Origin: Oscillospiraceae bacterium
GTDB lineage: Bacteria > Bacillota > Clostridia > Oscillospirales > Oscillospiraceae
NCBI GenBank assembly: GCA_021770845.1
Contig: JAETQF010000002.1
Span: 62,001-126,000 of the forward strand
DNA: 64,000 nucleotides
Direction: 5' to 3'
Shown: positions 2,354 through 61,704 of the stretch, in pieces
How the letters are laid out: each line of letters starts with the position of its first letter
Position numbering within the stretch: position 1 is the first letter of the stretch
Notes under the pieces: generated by a model
Database searches by the model: none
Seen by the model: only the letters and a program-made list of their open reading frames with translations
Told to the model about the DNA's origin: nothing
Program-made: the position numbers and the translations under genes

Positions 2354-2461
2354 GATCACTCCACCTCGAGACAATTGTAAATCATTTTGAGCTACAAGTC
2401 AATAGAGCAAAATGCTTTATCTATACTTTGTGTATGCTTTCGCTTTGAAAGGAGTACACAA

Positions 2462-2695
2462 ATGGTGTATAGAAGGATTCGAGATTTGAGGGAAGATTCG
2501 GATTTGAAGCAGATAACCCTTGCAAAATATTTGAATTGTTCCCAAGTTGGCTATTCGCAGTATGAGCTTGGAAAGCGGCATATCCCCGCAGAGGTTTTGA
2601 TCAAGCTGGCCGACTATTACGGGACAAGCATCGACTATCTTTTGGGCCGCACGGACGTTAAGACGCCTTACCCCGGTACGAACGGCAAAACGTAG
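2462..2695 (+). CDS. Small Cro/CI-type (XRE) transcriptional regulator
   Basis: This 77-residue protein is essentially one helix-turn-helix domain: RIRDLREDSDLKQITLAKYL, then NCSQVGYSQYELGKRHIP as recognition region, and the tail DYYGTSIDYLLGRTDVK that ends many phage-type repressors. It should bind DNA as a dimer. The start is ATG 2462, 9 bp after AAAGGAG. It is strikingly AT-rich compared with its neighbours, which suggests a foreign origin. It is paralogous to the regulator at 21397 (shared RIRDLRED, SQ-GYSKYE and YLLG motifs). A hairpin at 2701-2719 and then a structured repeat follow. Its target is probably the divergent promoter region it shares with the gene at 2042-2353. Confidence 0.9.
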   Translation: MVYRRIRDLREDSDLKQITLAKYLNCSQVGYSQYELGKRHIPAEVLIKLADYYGTSIDYLLGRTDVKTPYPGTNGKT

Positions 2696-2757
2696 CCAAT
2701 AACCGGAAGGGTTCCGGTTACGCGCCCAACACGCCCCCGTGGGGCACCACCCGGCAC

Positions 2758-3020
2758 CCAGGCGCACAGAATATGGATCCCACCCACGTCTCAGTACCGA
2801 CCCACTCAGCGGCAGCGGCGACAGGGGCCCCCGCGTCCGTATTCCCACCGCGCCGGAAGGGTCACCACCCACCCTCCGATCTGACGGCCCCCGTAAAAGG
2901 GGGATTCTTAAGGGGGAGACCGCCTGAGCGCGAAGCGCGATCCGGCGGTCTCCCCCTTAAGCGTGTCTTTCGGTTCCTTTCTGCACGAGCAGAAAGGAAT
3001 GCCCCCGGCAGGGCCCCCAG
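2758..3020 (+). repeat. Composite structured repeat, copy D
   Basis: The first 130 bp are nearly the same as 17997-18130 (both start CCAGGCGCACAGAATATGG). Two hairpins follow: an 18-bp perfect stem (2907-2924 with 2944-2961) holding an inner GCGC-GAA-GCGC hairpin, and an 11-bp perfect stem with ACGA loop (2974-2999). Relative to the other subfamily (16971-17410 and 20841-21055) it is inverted. It lies just downstream of an XRE gene and runs up to the rpoN stop. Confidence 0.85.
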
Positions 3021-4413: not shown

Positions 4414-7400
4414 TTATTTTTTGCCGAAGGGCCACCAGCCCTTGCGATCCTTCTTCTGCTCCGGTTTTTGGGGGGCGGGGGCGGAGGCTGGGGCCTTGTC
4501 CGCCGCCATGCGCTTTAGGGCCTCCTTGGCCTTCTTGCTGCCCTTGTCCGCCGCCTGCTGGTAGAGCTCCCGGGCCTTCTTCAGATCCCGCTTCACGCCG
4601 GCGCCCTTTTCATGGCATTCGCCCAGCAGGCACATGGCCCGCGTGTTGCCCTTGTCCGCCGCCTTCTGAAAGAGCTGGACGGCGTGGGCCTCGTCCTTCT
4701 CCGCGCCCAGGCCCTGGAGGAAGCACTCCCCCAGGGAGCAGGTGCCGTCCGAATGCCCGCCCTGGTCGGACAGAATGTACAGCCGCACCGCCTCGCCGGG
4801 ATCCCGCTCCACGCCGTAGCCGTTCTCATAGCACTCCCCCAGCAGGAACTGCGCCCGGGGATAGCCCTGGTCGGCGGCCCGCCTGAACCACTGGGCGGCC
4901 TGGTGGTCGTCCTCCTTCACGGTGATGCCGTGGTAGTAGAAGAAGCCCAGATTGCACTGGGCCCGGGCGTTGCCCCGCTTGGCGGCCTCCTCGTAGAGCT
5001 CCCGGGCCCTCTCCTTGTCCTCGGCCACCCCCCGGCCCAGCTCGTAGCACAGGCCCAGGGAGCAGGTGGAGGCGGCGTAGCCCCCCTTGTGGCCGATCTC
5101 GTAGAGCCGGACGGCCTCGTCGATATCCTTGTCCACGCCGTAGCCATACTCGTGGCACTCGCCCAGCAGGAAGTGGGCCCGGGCGCTGCCCTGCCTGGCC
5201 GCCTCCCGGAACCATTTGACGGCCTCGTTGTCGTCCATCTCCACGCCGATGCCCTGGTACAGGCAGAAGCCGTAGTTGCACTGGCCCCAGGAGCTGCCGG
5301 CCTCCGCCGCCTCCTTGTAGAGGGCGGCGGCCCGGGCCTTGTCCTGGGCCACCCCCTTGCCGAACTCATAGCAGGTGCCCAGGGCGCAGGTGGCGGTGGC
5401 GTAGTGCTGCTCATGGGACTTCTGGTACAGCTCCACCGCCTTTTCCAGATCGGCCTCCACCCCGTACCCGTTTTCGTAGCACTCGCCCAGCAGCTGCTGG
5501 GCCCGGGCCTGGCCCGCCTCGGCGGCCTTGGTAAACCACTTGACGGCCTCCACGTTGTCCTCCGGCACGCCGATGCCCTGGTAGTAGCAGAAGCCCAGGT
5601 TGCACTGGGCCCGGACATAGCCCGCCTCCGCCGCCTGCCGGTAGAGCTCCACCGCCCGGGATCGATCCATCTCCACCCCGGTGCCCAGCTCATAGCACAG
5701 GCCCAGGGAGCAGGTGCCCGCCGGGAAGCCCGCCTCGTGGGACTTCCGGAACAGCTCCGCCGCCTTGCTCTCGTCCTTGTCCACGCCGTAGCCGTTGTCG
5801 TAGCACTCGCCCAGCAGCTGGAGGGCCCGGGGATAGTCCTGGTCGGCGGCGGCCTGGAACCACCGGACGGCCTCCTTGTCGTCCACCGCCGTGCCGATGC
5901 CCTGGTAGTAGCAGAAGCCCAGGTTGCACTGGGCCCGGGCCTCCCCCGCCTGGGCGGATTTCAGGTACAGCTCCACGGCCCTGGCCTTGTCCATCTCCAC
6001 GCCGGTGCCCAGCTCGTAGCACAGCCCCAGGGCGCAGGTGCCCGCCGGGAAGCCCTTCTCGTCGGCCTGTATGTACAGCTCCACCGCCTTGGCGGGATCC
6101 TGAACCACGCCGAAGCCCGCCTCATAGCACTGGCCCAGCAGGTACAGCGCCCTGCCGTGGCCCTGCTGGGCGGACTTGTCAAACCAGTAGGCGGCCTGAT
6201 CGTTGTCCTCCGCCACCCCGATGCCCCGGTAGTAGCAGAAGCCCAGGTTGCACTGGGCCCGGGCGTCCCCGGCGTCCGCCGCCTGCTGGTAGAGCTCCAC
6301 CGCCCGGTTCAGATCCTGCTCCACCCCCCGGCCCAGCTCGTAGCACAGGCCCAGGGAGCAGATGCTGGGGGGATAGCCCCCGTCGCTGGCCGCCTGGTAG
6401 AGCCGCAGGGCCTTGTCCTGGTCGGCCTCCACGCCGTAGCCGAAGTCGTAGCAGTCGCCCAAGAGGCCCAGGGCCCGGGGGTAGCCCTCCTCCGCCGCCA
6501 GCTGGAACCAGTGGACGGCCTCCTTGTCGTCCACCTCGGTGCCGATGCCCCGGTAGCAGCAGAAGCCCAGATTACACTGGGCGGGGACGTAGCCCCGTTC
6601 CGCCGCCTGCCGGTACAGCTCCACCGCCCGGGGCTGATCCTGCTCCACGCCGGAGCCCAGCTCGTAGCACAGGCCCAGGGCGCAGATGGCGGGGGGATAG
6701 TCGTCCTCCCCGTCCCCGCTGGCCTTCTGATAGAGCTGGGCGGCGCGTGCCTCGTCCTTTTCCACCCCGGTGCCGTACTCGTAGCACTGGCCCAGCAGGA
6801 AGGTGCCCCGGAGGAAGCCCTCCTCGTCGGCCCGGCGGTAGAGCTCCACCGCCTTTTCCTCGTCCTTCTCCACGCCGATGCCCCGGTCGTAGCACACGCC
6901 CAGGGAGCAGGTGCCCGCGTCGTACCCCTGCTCATGGGCGGCGCGGTAGAGCTCCACGGCCTTCTCCTCGTCCTTTTCCACCCCCAGGCCGTTCTCAAAG
7001 CACTCGCCCAGGAGGGTCTGGGCCCGGGGGTACTCCTGCTGGGCGGCCTTGGCGAACCAGTTCACCGCCTCGGCGTAGTCCTTTTCCACGCCGATGCCCC
7101 GGTAGTAGAAGAAGCCCAGGTTGCACTGGGCGGGGGCGTAGTCCGCCTCCCCCGCCTCCCGGTACAGCTCCGCCGCCCGCAGTTTGTCCATCTCCGCGCC
7201 GTTGCCCAGCTCGCAGCACAGCCCCAGCTCGCACTGGGCGGGGGGATAGCCCTGATCCGCCGCCACGGTGAGCTCCCGCACGCCCTTTTCCGGATCCTTT
7301 TCCACGCCAATGCCCCGCAGCCAGCACAGGCCCAGGCTGTACTGAGCGGAGATGTGATCCCCCTCCGCCGCCCGGGTGAACCACTGGAAGGCCAGCTTCC

Positions 7401-16891: not shown

Positions 16892-16970
16892 ACCCCTCAT
16901 GCACCCCCGCCCCTGCGGGGGCCCCTGGCAAGGGGGGTTCCCCTTCCTGGATCCCGGGTGGCCCCGGGGG

Positions 16971-17410
16971 GCGCCGCTCCGCGGGGGGTTACTTTCTCTC
17001 GCGCGAGAGAAAGTAACCAAAGAGCGCGCTTAGGGGGACGCCTCCGAGTGGAGACGGCCCAAAGGGCGGGCCATCTCCACAGTCGGCTTTCCCCCTAAGA
17101 ACCCCCTTTTAAGGTCAAGGGCACGCCGATTTTGGGTGGCGGGGGAGTGACCGGCGCTTGCCCTCTGGACTGGTGTCATCCCCATTGGTGCTGCCGCCCG
17201 TGTGTGGGGACTGCCCCTGGGTGGTTCCCTCGGTTGGCGCCTGAGTGGTGCGGCGGACGTTCGGGGCGGTGGGAAGGGCACCGTCGATTTCGAGTGGCGG
17301 GAGAGTGACCGGCGTTTGCCCTCTGGACTGGTGTCATCCTCATTGGTGCTGCCGCCCGTGTGTGGGGACTGCCCCTGGGTGGTTCCCTCGGTTGGCGCCT
17401 GAGTTGTGCG
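16971..17410 (-). repeat. Composite structured repeat, copy A (left arm of island 2)
   Basis: In the minus orientation this has the same order as copies B and D: conserved tail, a long CTTAGGGGG/CCCCCTAAG hairpin with a variable inner stem (17029-17099), then a perfect 32-bp palindrome at 16987-17018 (arm GGTTACTTTCTCTCGC). Its outer 55 bp closely match the reverse complement of the outer end of copy B. It includes a tandem duplication of the tail (17118-17410). It fills the 524-bp gap after lepA. Confidence 0.85.
17118..17410. repeat. Tandem direct repeat within copy A
   Basis: Two units of about 133 bp (17118-17250 and 17275-17410) start with AGGGCAC and share a nearly identical core from GAGTGACCGGCG to GGTTGGCGCCTGAGT. 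A third, diverged core is at 20953-21055 in copy C. Confidence 0.88.
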
Positions 17411-17415
17411 GGGGT

Positions 17416-17670
17416 TTAGCGGGTCAGTTCCAGGGCGAGACGGAAGCCGGCGCGGAAATAGGCGGCTTCCCGCAGCTCGCCGATGGCGAGTTGTTCCACC
17501 AGCAGGTTGTCTATCAGCGACGCGGTGTCATGGTTAAAGGAGCCAAGCAGACGCTTGACCTCGTCGTCCTGATGGCTTGTGCGGACAAGGTATTCGCCGT
17601 CCTCGCACAGGATATCCTCTACAAGTGTTTGGCCGACGCTGGTATAAAAGCTATCCATCAAGTTGTTCAT
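17416..17670 (-). CDS. Small hypothetical protein, cargo of XRE module 2
   Basis: This 84-residue acidic, helical protein (MNNLMDSFYTSV at the start, YFRAGFRLALELTR at the end) has the general shape of short uncharacterised Firmicute proteins ending in a GFRLxxxL helix, but I cannot name a family with confidence. ATG 17670 follows AAGGAG. It is divergent from the XRE gene at 17760, with a 41-bp palindrome between them, and both are bracketed by inverted copies of the structured repeat. Codon use is less GC-rich than in lepA. Confidence 0.75.
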   Translation of the reverse strand: MNNLMDSFYTSVGQTLVEDILCEDGEYLVRTSHQDDEVKRLLGSFNHDTASLIDNLLVEQLAIGELREAAYFRAGFRLALELTR

Positions 17671-17699
17671 AATGCAACTCCTTCGTTCTACTAAATTTT

Positions 17700-17740
17700 A
17701 CGCACGCTATGGGCGTATTATATACGCCCATAGCGTGCGT
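17700..17740. promoter_or_regulatory. 41-bp palindromic operator between divergent genes
   Basis: Arms ACGCACGCTATGGGCGTAT and the exact complement meet around a short AT centre (TTAT-like) that could hold a -10 element. It lies between the starts of the 84-residue gene and the XRE gene, so it is the expected autoregulatory operator. Confidence 0.85.
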
Positions 17741-17759
17741 GTCAAGGGGTTTGAGAAAA

Positions 17760-17972
17760 ATGGTTCCATTTACTGAACATTTGAAAGAAGCCCGCAAACG
17801 AAAAAAATTGAAACAGCGCGAGATGGCGGAGCATCTGCAAATTGGTATGCGTACCTATCAAAATTATGAAGGTGGCCAGCGCCGTCCTGATTATGAGACC
17901 CTGGTTGCCATAGCTGATTACCTTGAGGTGAGCCTTGACTATCTGCTGGGCCGGACGGACGAGCCCAAATAG
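17760..17972 (+). CDS. Small Cro/CI-type (XRE) regulator
   Basis: This 70-residue single-domain helix-turn-helix protein reads HLKEARKRKKLKQREMAEHL, then QIGMRTYQNYEGGQRRPDYE, and ends EVSLDYLLGRTDEPK. The real start is ATG 17760, 9 bp after AAGGGG. An upstream in-frame ATG at 17709 lies inside the operator palindrome and is rejected. The gene is AT-rich in a GC-rich setting. It should repress its own promoter and that of the 84-residue gene through the palindrome. A structured repeat starts 24 bp after its stop. Confidence 0.92.
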   Translation: MVPFTEHLKEARKRKKLKQREMAEHLQIGMRTYQNYEGGQRRPDYETLVAIADYLEVSLDYLLGRTDEPK

Positions 17973-17996
17973 CACCTGCACCGCACCCCCGCACAT

Positions 17997-18262
17997 CCAG
18001 GCGCACAGAATATGGATCCCACCCACTTCTCAGTACCCACATACTCAGCGGCAGCGGCGACAGGGGGATCCGCGTCCGTATCCCCACCGCGCCGGAAGGG
18101 TAACCACCCACCCCCCGATCTGACAGCCCCCGTAAAAAGGGGGTTCTTAGGGGGTGGCCGACTAAGGACGCGAAGCGTCCGCCGGAGGCCACCCCCTAAG
18201 CGTGTCTTTGGTTACTTTCTGCACGAGCAGAAAGTAACGCCCCCCGCAGGGGCCCCTGCGGA
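17997..18262 (+). repeat. Composite structured repeat, copy B (right arm of island 2)
   Basis: The first 130 bp nearly match copy D. The long hairpin has a 14-bp perfect stem (18146-18159 with 18187-18200) and an inner GGACGC-GAA-GCGTCC stem. The second hairpin, 18211-18238, has a 12-bp perfect stem with ACGA loop. The end, GCAGGGGCCCCTGC, is itself palindromic. It is inverted relative to copy A. Confidence 0.87.
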
Positions 18263-18281: not shown

Positions 18282-20216
18282 ATGCCAAGCGCCGAAGCGT
18301 TGCAATATTATGCCGCGGCCCTGAAGCAGGGCCAGCGGGAATACAAGAACTGCGTCCACCGGGGACGCTACCCCTATATCCAGTCCCTCCAGCAGGTGCG
18401 CCAGAAGCCCCTGTCCCAGGTGGCTCTGGGGGCCATGGAGATCCCCATCTATTTGATCGTGGGCTCCACCCAGGACGCCCGGTGCAACTCCTTCTCCCCC
18501 AGCTTCTTCCCCCTGCTGGACTCGGAGACGGAGTTCGCCCTGAAATGGATCAACCTGTGTTCCGCCCAGCTCAGCGAGGGCATTCACGACCCCATCAAGT
18601 GCTATGAGTACCTGGGCCGGTTCTATGTGGAGGAGGGCAACAAGCGGGTCAGCGTGCTCAAATCCCTGGGCTCCGCCACCATCCGGGCGGAGGTGATCCG
18701 CCTCATGCCCGAGCAGACGGACGACGTCACCGTCAAGATCTATATGGAGTTCCTGGACTTCTTCCGCTGCTCCAAGTGCTGGGGCGTCCACTTCACCGAG
18801 CCGGGGGGCTACGCCGCCCTCCAGGCCGCCTTCGGCCTCCGGAAGGACGAGCCGTGGCCCGAGGAGTTCCAGCGCAAGTTCAAGCGGCACTACTTCTCCT
18901 TCCGGGACTGCTTCTACCGTTTAGGCGGCGGCGGACTGGGGCTCACCGCCGGGGACGCCCTGCTGCGCTGGCTCAGTTTCCACTCCGGGGCGGAGTTTTT
19001 GGAGATGGAGGCGGAGGACTACCGCCAGACCCTGTCCGCCGTGTGGAAGGAGCTGTGCGTCTACACCGACGAGCAGCCCATCGCCGTCAGCCTGGCCCCC
19101 ATGGGGGAGGAGAAAAAGGCCGCTTCCAGCCTGCTGTCCTTTGGGCGCAAAACCCTGCGCTGCGCCTTCCTGTTCCAGAAAAACCCCCAGACCAGCGCCT
19201 GGACGGCCTCCCATGACAGGGGCCGGGAGTATCTGGAGGAGACGCTGGGAGACAGTGTTTCCGTCTCCTGCTATTACGACGTAGATCCCCAGGGTGCGGA
19301 GACGGTGGTGGAGGAGGCGGTGGCCGCCGGGGCGGAGCTCATCTTCACCACCTCCGTCAGCCTCATTGACGCCACCCTGCGGGTGGCGGTGAAGTACCCC
19401 AAGGTGCGCTTTTTGAACTGCTCCATCGACCAGCCCTATGTGAACGTGAAGGCCTACTACTGCCGGGTGTACGAGGCCAAGTTCATCACTGGGGCCATCG
19501 CCGGGGCGCTGTGCAAGAACGGCCGGATCGGCTACGTGGGCAGCTACCCCATCCTGGGCGTGCCCGCCAGCATCAACGCCTTCGCCCTGGGGGCCTCCCT
19601 CACCAATCCGGACGCCCGGATCGCCCTGCGCTGGCACTGCCTGCCCGGGGACTATATGGAGGACTTCCGGCGGCAGGGCATCCGGCTGGTGAGCGACCGG
19701 GATCACATCGCGGAGCAGCCCGAGGGGGCCCAGGGGCTGGCCCGCCTGGGCGACGACGGCAAGCTGAAGCTGCTGGCCTCCCCCAGCTGGCTGTGGGGGG
19801 AGTTTTACGTGCGCATGGTGCGGGAATTCCTCCAGGATCCCCGGCGGATCCCCCTGGCGGGGGACAGTGAGCGGGCCCTCAACTTCTGGTGGGGGATGAA
19901 CAGCGGCGTGGTGGATCTGCGGTACAGCGACGATCTGCCCGACGGCGTCCGGGAGCTGGCCCGCATCCTCCAGACCGGCATCCAGGCCGGGGCCATCCAG
20001 CCCTTCCAGCGGCGGATCACCGCCCAGGACGGGCAGCTCATCAACGACGGAAGCCACCCGCTGTCCATGGAGGAGATCCTGAAGATGGACTGGCTGTGCG
20101 ACCGGGTGGACGGCGCCCTGCCCGCCTATGAGGAGCTGCTCCCCGTGGCCCAGCCCACCGTCCGCCGCCTGGGCGTCCACCGGGAGCAGATCCCGCCGGA
20201 GGAGGCGAGCCTTTGA
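18282..20216 (+). CDS. Cytoplasmic ParB-like/BMP-domain fusion protein
   Basis: This 644-residue protein has no signal peptide or lipobox, although its C-terminal half (about 290-560) is a BMP/PnrA-like periplasmic-binding-protein fold (VKYPKVRFLNCSIDQPYVNVKAYYCRVYEAKFITGAIAGAL, then GYVGSYPILG). The N-terminal part (about 45-145) looks ParB-like, with GRFYVEEGNKRVSVLKSLGSA. BMP domains bind nucleosides or similar small ligands, so a cytosolic ligand sensor is one reading; no ABC permease or ATPase lies nearby. ATG 18282 follows AAAGGAG. The stop overlaps the start of the metallophosphoesterase by 4 bp, indicating translational coupling. The function is inferred only. Confidence 0.8.
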   Translation: MPSAEALQYYAAALKQGQREYKNCVHRGRYPYIQSLQQVRQKPLSQVALGAMEIPIYLIVGSTQDARCNSFSPSFFPLLDSETEFALKWINLCSAQLSEGIHDPIKCYEYLGRFYVEEGNKRVSVLKSLGSATIRAEVIRLMPEQTDDVTVKIYMEFLDFFRCSKCWGVHFTEPGGYAALQAAFGLRKDEPWPEEFQRKFKRHYFSFRDCFYRLGGGGLGLTAGDALLRWLSFHSGAEFLEMEAEDYRQTLSAVWKELCVYTDEQPIAVSLAPMGEEKKAASSLLSFGRKTLRCAFLFQKNPQTSAWTASHDRGREYLEETLGDSVSVSCYYDVDPQGAETVVEEAVAAGAELIFTTSVSLIDATLRVAVKYPKVRFLNCSIDQPYVNVKAYYCRVYEAKFITGAIAGALCKNGRIGYVGSYPILGVPASINAFALGASLTNPDARIALRWHCLPGDYMEDFRRQGIRLVSDRDHIAEQPEGAQGLARLGDDGKLKLLASPSWLWGEFYVRMVREFLQDPRRIPLAGDSERALNFWWGMNSGVVDLRYSDDLPDGVRELARILQTGIQAGAIQPFQRRITAQDGQLINDGSHPLSMEEILKMDWLCDRVDGALPAYEELLPVAQPTVRRLGVHREQIPPEEASL

Positions 20217-20887
20217 AGCTACTGGTGATCTCGGACGCCGCCGATCCCGGCCTCTGGGACTATTTTTCCAAGGACAAGCTGGGCGGGGCGGACGCCATTT
20301 TATCCTGCGGGGATCTGCCCGCCAGCTATCTCAGCTTTCTGGTGACCATGGGCAACATCCCCCTGTTCTACGTCCACGGCAACCATGACGTGAAATACGA
20401 TCAAAACCCGCCGGAGGGCTGCGACTGCATCGACGGGGAGATTGTCACCTTCCGGGGCTACCGGATTCTGGGCCTGGGGGGCAGCATCGAGTATAGCCGG
20501 GGCCCCCACCAGTACACGGAGTGGGGGATGAAACGGCGGATTGCCCGGCTGGGGGCCGATCTGCGCCGGGGCGGGGTGGACATCCTGCTCACCCACGCCC
20601 CCGCCCAGGGGCTGGGGGACATGGAGGATCATTGCCACCGGGGGTTTGCCTGCTTCCGGGAGCTGCTGGATCGCTACCATCCCCTGTACCACTGCTACGG
20701 GCACGTACATTTACAGTACGTCCCCACACAGCCGCGGCTGCGGCAGTATGGGGACACCAAGGTGGTGAACGCCTTCGGCAAGTACCTCATTGAGCTGCCG
20801 GATCGGGAGGAGGCCCCCCAGCCCTGGTGGAAGCGCCTGGGGCGCCGCTCCGCGGGGGGTTACTTTCTCTCACGCGAGAGAAAGTAA
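20213..20887 (+). CDS. Calcineurin-like metallophosphoesterase with repeat-derived C-terminus
   Basis: This 224-residue cytoplasmic protein has the metal-site motifs GDLPASY, GNHD, THAPA and GHVH. The first motif is SDAADP, so the usual DxH His is absent, as in some members of this family. It starts at TTG 20213, overlapping the BMP-fusion stop by 4 bp; the pair probably works together on a nucleotide-type ligand (inference). The last 15 or so residues (RRSAGGYFLSRERK) and the stop codon are supplied by copy C of the structured repeat, so the original C-terminus has been replaced or extended. The substrate is unknown. Confidence 0.85.
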   Translation: MKLLVISDAADPGLWDYFSKDKLGGADAILSCGDLPASYLSFLVTMGNIPLFYVHGNHDVKYDQNPPEGCDCIDGEIVTFRGYRILGLGGSIEYSRGPHQYTEWGMKRRIARLGADLRRGGVDILLTHAPAQGLGDMEDHCHRGFACFRELLDRYHPLYHCYGHVHLQYVPTQPRLRQYGDTKVVNAFGKYLIELPDREEAPQPWWKRLGRRSAGGYFLSRERK

Positions 20888-21055
20888 CCAAAGAGCGCGC
20901 ATAGGGGCTGTGCCCCTATGTACCCCCTTTCTCCCTTGGAAAACGTTGTGGGAGAGTGACCGGCGCGCGGGGGCTGGACTGGTGTGCTCCCCATTGGTGC
21001 TGCCGCCCGTGTGTGGGGACAGCCCCCAGGCAGTTCCCACGGTTGGCGCCTGAGT
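20841..21055 (-). repeat. Composite structured repeat, copy C
   Basis: It begins GGCGCCGCTCCGCGGGGGG like copy A, has a 32-bp palindrome at 20858-20889 with one mismatch, a shortened CATAGGGG/CCCCTATG hairpin (20900-20919) and the conserved tail at 20953-21055. It has the same orientation as copy A. The stop of the metallophosphoesterase gene is inside it. Confidence 0.85.
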
Positions 21056-21139
21056 TTCTCTTGTAGACAACCAACGCGCAGGGAGGCGGTTCCCTGCGCG
21101 TTGGTGTTTTATTGGCATTGAAAGTGTGGCAGACCCGGC

Positions 21140-42172: not shown

Positions 42173-42248
42173 GTAGGGGAGGGGCTTGCCCCTCCCGTCT
42201 TGAAGGGTCAGAAACCCTTTTCCCGGGAGGGGCAAGCCCCTCCCCTAC
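42173..42248. repeat. REP-like palindromic repeat, copy 2
   Basis: The arms GTAGGGGAGGGGCTTGCCC and complement enclose a centre with AAGGGTCAGAAACCCTT. It lies 31 bp after noc and before the terminator of the convergent CoA-transferase operon. Confidence 0.9.
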
Positions 42249-59323: not shown

Positions 59324-59402
59324 TGTAGGGGAGGGGCTTGCCCCTCCCGCCTTGGAGAGTCAGAGACCCTTTCCCACGGGAGGGGCAAGCCCCTCCCCTA
59401 CA
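59324..59402. repeat. REP-like palindromic repeat, copy 3
   Basis: The arms are TGTAGGGGAGGGGCTTGCCC and complement, with a different centre (CCTTGGAGAGTCAGAGACCC). It lies between the membrane-protein stop and the convergent proA terminator. Confidence 0.9.
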
Positions 59403-61629: not shown

Positions 61630-61704
61630 GTAGGGGAGGGGCTTGCCCCTCCCGCCGTCCCGATGTGCTCTCTGTTCCCCGGGAGGGGCAAGCCCCTCCC
61701 CTAC
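61630..61704. repeat. REP-like palindromic repeat, copy 4
   Basis: The arms GTAGGGGAGGGGCTTGCCC and complement enclose an unrelated centre (GCCGTCCCGATGTGCTCTC). It lies directly next to the stop of the gene at 61706. Confidence 0.9.

Follow-up and report, generated by a model that had tools for sequence, protein, structure and literature searches.

The island at positions 16971-18262 of the window, by which we mean the whole 64,000-nucleotide stretch analysed here (G000:C28:62001-126000, from a genome of 2.48 Mb in 48 contigs that is 82% complete), is probably one copy of a multicopy, non-autonomous, MITE-like family of about 0.5-1.4 kb, with folded ends and an optional regulatory passenger. 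The arms, rather than the gene pair that they enclose here, are the basic unit of this family, because 9 of the 13 two-armed copies in this genome have no room for the cassette. In the mechanism that we propose, each end would consist, in inverted orientation, of a terminal hairpin, a purine flank lying along this hairpin as a third strand, a flank-loop pairing of 3-5 bp and, usually, a second hairpin, and an enzyme supplied in trans may recognise this fold in single-stranded DNA or RNA. If the fold is what is recognised, the end sequences can drift, provided that they change together. The centre would serve as an optional slot, which in the window holds a divergent regulator pair, and cassettes may be swapped or disappear in the course of time, perhaps when copies recombine with each other.

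Should the folded ends be read by a mobilising enzyme, this would join the bacterial intrastrand triplex repeats, of which neither the origin nor the role is settled, with the transposase-less elements, and would show how small regulator genes are traded within and between gut bacterial genomes with no visible transposase. The covariation of the ends makes direct mutational tests of this proposal possible.

The window element and its copies in the genome

The preliminary description of this DNA had reported two opposed arms with matching outer ends, exactly two enclosed genes separated by a 41-bp palindrome, and an AT-rich pair in a GC-rich host, and our analysis agrees with all of these (Table 1). 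Arm A (16971-17410) and arm B (17997-18262) lie in opposite orientation and, read inward from the hairpin feet (16988 and 18238), match over 60 nt at 85% and then again over 35 nt at 86%. Arm A contains two 133-nt tandem copies at a spacing of 158 nt (from 17124 and 17282), and the core sequence of arm B differs from that of arm A. We rejected the possibility that arm B is arm A inverted over its full length, since past about 130 nt the arms of an element match at length only in loci L009 and L151. The GC content is 51% in the cassette, 48% in the XRE gene and 44% in the intergenic region, compared with 65% in the window and 65-66% in the arms.

Table 1. Features of the element and its immediate borders, in window positions
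Feature	Position	Strand	Basis
GC-rich sequence outside the left edge; together with the T-rich strand of the hairpin it makes a terminator-like site that points inward (stem-loop 16976-16989)	16970-16987	.	terminator-like stem-loop
Left terminal hairpin 1: GTTACTTTCTCTC / loop GCGC / GAGAGAAAGTAAC	16988-17017	+	sequence, inverted repeat
Left inner flank CAAAGAGCGCGC; a third-strand candidate through AAAGAG, the mirror of the purine strand of the stem, and a pseudoknot candidate through GCGC, complementary to the loop	17018-17029	+	
Left hairpin 2, CTTAGGGGG...CCCCCTAAG	17029-17099	+	inverted repeat
Tandem 133-nt core repeats of arm A (17124-17256, 17282-17414)	17124-17414	+	direct repeat
84-aa DUF6809-like protein	17416-17670	-	Pfam match below cut-off, E 0.0038
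41-bp palindrome, probable operator, overlapping the promoter of the DUF6809-like gene	17700-17740	.	inverted repeat
Consensus sigma-70-type promoter TTGACA-17-TATAAT of the DUF6809-like gene	17717-17745	-	promoter consensus
70-aa XRE-family regulator	17760-17972	+	HTH_19, E 2e-15
Arm B core, beginning at or soon after the XRE stop codon	17973-18145	+	own-genome matches
Right hairpin 2	18146-18200	+	inverted repeat
Right inner flank CGTGTCTTTG, inverted; pseudoknot and third-strand candidate	18201-18210	+	
Right terminal hairpin 1: GTTACTTTCTGC / ACGA / GCAGAAAGTAAC; type unlike the left one	18211-18238	+	inverted repeat
GC-rich sequence outside the right edge; resembles a terminator in the inward reading	18239-18262	.	

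The palindrome is perfect, with 19-bp arms that are 100% complementary around a 3-nt centre, and overlaps a promoter that agrees with the consensus at 12 of 12 positions. The XRE protein, whose listed open reading frame begins further upstream (17709, 87 aa), probably represses this strong promoter, and perhaps its own, by way of the palindrome. The DUF6809-like protein of the window scores 18.5 bits against a Pfam cut-off of 27, and a homologue carried by the L111 element, in another genome, reaches 32.7 bits, above the cut-off. A type II toxin-antitoxin pair was considered and discarded, as searches of Pfam and NCBIfam gave no toxin family in the cassette proteins, with only regulator-type and DUF6809 matches.

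Searches of the genome with arm A and arm B gave 58 and 46 local matches, respectively, many of which form opposed pairs, and 17 regions with such matches were retrieved. In this genome, the end motif was counted 43 times (0 for a reversed control pattern), and 12 of these 43 motifs belong to the solo variant described below. Thirteen two-armed copies were recognised (the window element, L009, L010, L013, L014, L016, L017, L018, L020, the second of L022, L023, L024 and L025), with one hairpin damaged in L010, L013, L016 and L023. Nine of them measure 0.55-0.92 kb and are too short for the cassette, its lack being judged by size for eight and by listing of open reading frames for one (L022). 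The remaining four, of about 1.2-1.4 kb, carry genes: a DUF6809-like and an XRE protein in the window; a DUF6809-like protein that is 69% identical and below the Pfam cut-off, together with another XRE protein, in L009; an RHH-like protein (RHH_1 just below cut-off) with an XRE protein in L013; and, in L020, a protein of 72 aa whose matches to RHH or DUF6364 are no more than weak (E 0.03-0.1). The earlier view of a cassette-carrying unit thus holds for some copies, which do carry a regulator pair with an operator-like palindrome, but the pair is not the core of the element. Genome-wide repeats with no link to XRE genes had been named beforehand as what would speak against that view; the repeats do occur throughout the genome, yet in several species some of the elements have small XRE, RHH-like or DUF6809-like genes in or beside them.

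Incomplete copies were also found. A half-element at 20841-21056 of the window is followed by a divergent RHH-like/XRE-like gene pair (named by resemblance) that extends to 21618; its right arm is missing, and a related locus, L186, retains one. The open reading frame that precedes this half-element (20213-20887) terminates inside the terminal hairpin. A third, incomplete copy in the window (2450-3018) consists of an XRE-like gene and then a B-type arm alone (2758-3018), and L019, close to a contig end, is a half-element with an L020-like protein. Two contigs start with the same element end (G000:C9:1-57 and G000:C28:1-57), which indicates that assemblies break within elements and that the copy count is a minimum.

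Inverted matches between the two arms were checked at the ends of 22 elements: the first match spans at least 100 nt in 12 of them and 35-62 nt, counted from the ends, in most others. Only short partial inverted matches were obtained for L055 and L154 and none for L017, and neither L017 nor L055 matches at the very ends. Past the first 20-130 nt, the arms of one element are mostly without a match. Paired ends up to 1.4 kb apart included no autonomous relative, and a large autonomous element between distant ends was discarded as an idea, given that the distant pair of L181 holds ordinary genes.

A compact solo variant is present in 12 copies in this genome (L195-L204, L017 and L025), with a T5 stem (mostly CTTTTTCTCGAGAGAAAAAG), an A5-A6 flank and a conserved tail of its own; several copies lie directly after a stop codon. 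Insertion beside stop codons as a general rule was dropped, because crude open reading frames made the signal too noisy. Two other kinds of repeats were observed in the window. One is a family (GTAGGGGAGGGGCTTGCCCCTCCC...), partly inverted, at 884-956, 42173-42245, 59325-59397 and 61630-61702, and the other a long array of 108-bp-periodic repeats at 4573-7270, 61-73% identical to reference copies, which is perhaps a repetitive protein gene.

Covariation within the proposed folded ends

We collected 284 ends, with overlapping loci counted twice, from the own genome and from same-genus and named-genome loci, which correspond to 137 distinct ends; 9 of the 137 were dropped because their flank began with CGAGG, most of them being the outside reading of a symmetric hairpin, and a few ends were entered twice with two loop definitions. 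Each end reads, inward, as a hairpin, a T-run, a C(A/G)A-run, a short segment and then usually a second hairpin, the feet of the first being GTTAC, GGTAC, GTTCC, GTTTC, GTGAC or GTCAC. In 168 of 211 distinct ends, another helix, of at least 5 bp, starts 9-15 nt past hairpin 1, a count made without a shuffle control.

Loop and flank are complementary to each other to an extent that reshuffled flanks never reached: among 85 distinct combinations, contiguous complementarity reaches 3 nt or more in 74, 4 or more in 49 and 5 or more in 13, compared with means of 32.0 (sd 4.0), 7.6 and 1.2, respectively, in 5000 reshufflings. In 38 of 42 distinct cases, the T-run of the stem is as long as the purine-A run of the flank (mean 19.8 and maximum 30 in 20000 shuffles), a figure to be read with the T3 that the fetch pattern fixed in the named loci and, like the previous ones, with shuffles that ignore relatedness. 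The left and right ends of one element are often of different types and each flank still fits its own loop, which indicates that the pairing is local. Seven hairpins outside the set, from six genomes, were compared by eye (L226, which is not a hairpin, was left out): T-run and A-run were equal in 7 of 7, from T3 to T6 and including T5/A5 and T6/A6, and loop complementarity was present in 3 of 7, in what is only a partly independent test, as the pattern used required a hairpin-like core and a short A-run.

Judged from sequence, the mirror relation between stem and flank would carry the signature of an intrastrand triplex, with a purine motif on one strand and a pyrimidine motif on the other, and the relation between loop and flank that of a pseudoknot. 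The order of a class II purine motif, namely a 5' pyrimidine stem, a purine stem and a mirroring purine third strand on one strand, is present in the sequence, with a strict purine tract that in many copies is only AAAG(A/G), shorter than the 6-15 nt stems considered in PMC4666352. In an AT-rich genome, L163 (4617-5441) contains two tandem elements 24 bp apart, the first seemingly without its left part and the second with ends that are the T2/A2 version of the motif.

The arms might instead be RNA modules, that is, structured 3' untranslated regions or terminators placed after both cassette genes and insulating them from their neighbours, with copies kept alike by gene conversion and presence or absence explained by deletion. 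Both cassette genes end within about 10 nt of the arm cores, and the edges of the window element, L025 and L052 are terminator-like for transcription that enters from outside, as this account would have it. The distinct contexts of hairpin 2, read inward, contain 25 A.C and 8 G.T pairs, which makes the helix G.U-tolerant in the outward direction and gives a small hint that the outward-read strand, the one of the cassette mRNA, may be kept foldable; this asymmetry is small, ignores relatedness and is accompanied by 83 other mismatches in the same helices (96 distinct arm pairs). Many sites are syntenic, which also suits RNA modules, but one orthologous site cleanly lacks an entire copy (L205, see below), two cassette-less copies that we scanned, L025 and L052, have no promoter-like site, the solo modules of T5 type are turned in the reverse direction with respect to the gene they follow, and the nine short copies have no room for the gene pair that the modules would serve. 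We consider this explanation unlikely, and continue with that of a non-autonomous mobile family.

Orthologous sites, spread and searches for a mobilising enzyme

The genes that flank the island are, presumably, lepA and a BMP gene, as the preliminary description also had it. A lepA match was obtained in 36 of 41 same-genus genomes. Of the 30 lepA loci that we retrieved, only four (in G000, G002, G052 and G017) have the BMP gene within about 1.5 kb of lepA, and all four carry the element there. Its interior differs: measured from foot to foot, the element spans 1251 bp and holds a DUF6809-like and an XRE gene in one species, spans 1048 and 1053 bp and holds an RHH-like and a different XRE gene in two, and spans 629 bp with no cassette in the fourth; the terminal hairpin types also differ among the four species. 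At this junction, in the four loci with a BMP gene nearby, neither the empty site that was to be looked for in relatives nor a target-site duplication beside the element was seen. In three loci of other species (L089, L090 and L095), a repeat of roughly the last 23 lepA codons stands some 165-180 bp past the stop codon of lepA, as though a further small element had landed at this place and restored the end of the gene.

An empty site was found elsewhere. The element of L205, in G052, is absent from G000, where its flanks map to C28:19985-20851 and C28:20849-21676, contiguous, with a 3-bp overlap and 89% identity. GCAGGG stands at both edges of the filled site, placed by eye, and once in the empty site; since the outer sequence of the elements itself contains or resembles GCAGGG, insertion with duplication and loss by recombination are indistinguishable at this site. 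At the site of L014, searched in four genomes, G002 and G043 have other sequence, the element of G052 runs across contig ends and the site is split between contigs in G051, and the solo end module of L143 has no equivalent at about 34.07-34.16 kb of the window, in an alignment of diverged sequence. Many further element sites are common to several species, so many copies are old. The idea of a transposase-less mobile unit with terminal inverted repeats therefore gains from the many copies and from their absence at some orthologous sites, but not from the window locus, which offers neither an empty site nor a target duplication.

A search of the relatives, which had been proposed together with that of the genome itself, located the end motif in 34 of 41 same-genus genomes, the own one included (reversed control: 4 of 41, with at most 2 each), with the highest counts in G020 (88), G043 (48), G017 (45) and G000 (43). 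In a sample of the phylum, the end pattern occurred in 9 of 398 genomes, two of them in the genus, and the reversed control in 13 by manual count; as the control exceeds the motif here, single matches outside the genus mean little, and presence outside it is convincing only for genomes with several matches, G226 (8), G408 (6) and perhaps G326 (3). Most named matches fall in uncultured Oscillospiraceae or Clostridia; Pseudoflavonifractor capillosus An827 and Oscillospiraceae B95_20_FP_BP are also represented, and a few matches labelled Saccharibacteria, Bacteroidetes or Deltaproteobacteria may be assembly contamination. The matches inspected in Deltaproteobacteria CSMAG_227 (L117, L140) were left out, as no CAAAG flank follows directly after the hairpin. 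By coordinates, ten loci of five further genomes (G005, G015, G018, G042 and G047) have a DUF6809 match no more than about 0.7 kb from an element end, and in G043 (L264) such a match lies between two opposed ends. L264 is the only one of 30 fetched DUF6809 loci, the best per genome, with an end motif nearby, which indicates that DUF6809 is common without the motif.

Our transposase search covered the Y1 family (PF01797), and no mobilising gene was found. PF01797 bears on a REPIN-like origin, in which paired palindromes would be moved as single-stranded hairpins by a Y1 (RAYT) transposase, and which the inverted pairs of intergenic palindromes resemble, as REPINs are presented in PMC3116915. 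The family occurs in 16 of 41 same-genus genomes, including the motif-rich G052 (one match, with an internal stop) and G020 (one partial match), but has no match in G000, G017, G043, G002, G006 and G051, which contain 21-48 end motifs each and several of which are incomplete (G000 82% and G043 69% complete). Moreover, the units are far longer than REPINs, and the GTAG or CGTC tags that define REP families (PMC3733652) do not appear in the conserved motif, all of which makes this origin very improbable.

No insertion sequence with these ends was seen in the loci examined, in an analysis whose transposase search was for the Y1 family. This counts against reading the island as an ordinary mobile insertion cassette, derived from a DDE-type insertion sequence in which passengers took the place of the transposase, and moved in trans by a full-length relative, its hairpins being unusual inverted repeats. 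A transposase-less unit between inverted repeats is what the mic elements look like in PMC3913671, and the possible 6-bp direct repeat at the filled L205 site would suit such an insertion. The terminal repeats vary, however, yet keep the relations of loop to flank and stem to flank, which recognition as a double strand would not need, and most two-armed copies of the genome have no passenger; we regard this reading as improbable.

The Rfam search returned nothing at gathering score in 3 plus 9 loci, with six weak matches inside the window element far below those scores, and we dropped a known RNA family on these grounds. We likewise dropped a phage or plasmid origin: no DNA match was obtained in phage and plasmid collections, no DUF6809 match in phages and none confirmed in viral contigs, and no match of the end pattern in viral contigs. 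The literature searched contained no description of these elements and no mention of DUF6809.

Beyond the MITE-like reading that we favour, we advance only tentatively, and rather doubt, that the family represents a new class of prokaryotic mobile element, whose termini would be recognised as a single-stranded pseudoknot-triplex by non-Y1 machinery and whose central slot would trade small regulator cassettes among copies and species, with the module also spreading on its own, in solo form, to positions right behind stop codons and, beyond the genus, into a few genomes with several copies.

Comparison with known systems

The elements share some defining features of several known systems and lack, or may lack, others, and we do not assign them to any one. 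They are short, multicopy and non-autonomous, with terminal inverted repeats and no transposase, as are MITEs in general (review PMC10969869), and differ from them in their covarying, foldable ends and central cassette slot. With REPINs and their RAYTs (PMC3116915), they have in common inverted hairpin pairs, intergenic position and lack of autonomy; unlike REPINs, they are much longer, some carry genes, the conserved motif has no GTAG tag, and the partner Y1/RAYT transposase is absent from the six motif-rich genomes searched, some of them incomplete.

Mobile insertion cassettes such as MIC231 and mic-qnrD (PMC3913671) also have inverted repeats around passengers and no transposase. In contrast to these, passengers are present here in only 4 of 13 two-armed copies and differ between species at one site, the ends are structured and variable, and no parental insertion sequence was recognised among the loci examined.

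The ends resemble the triplex motifs named TMECO, which PMC4666352 presents as short G/C-rich motifs, with five E. coli cases in inverted pairs of two types, and for which its authors found no association with mobile elements. In both, an intergenic hairpin precedes a purine third strand, of class II on one strand and class IV on the other, but our elements have an A/T-rich triple part, run lengths that covary between stem and flank, and a loop that is complementary to the flank as well, and the module makes up the two ends of an element of 0.5-1.4 kb. The nearest published concept for the ends is thus the bacterial intrastrand triplex motif, and for the whole element the mobile insertion cassettes and the REPINs.
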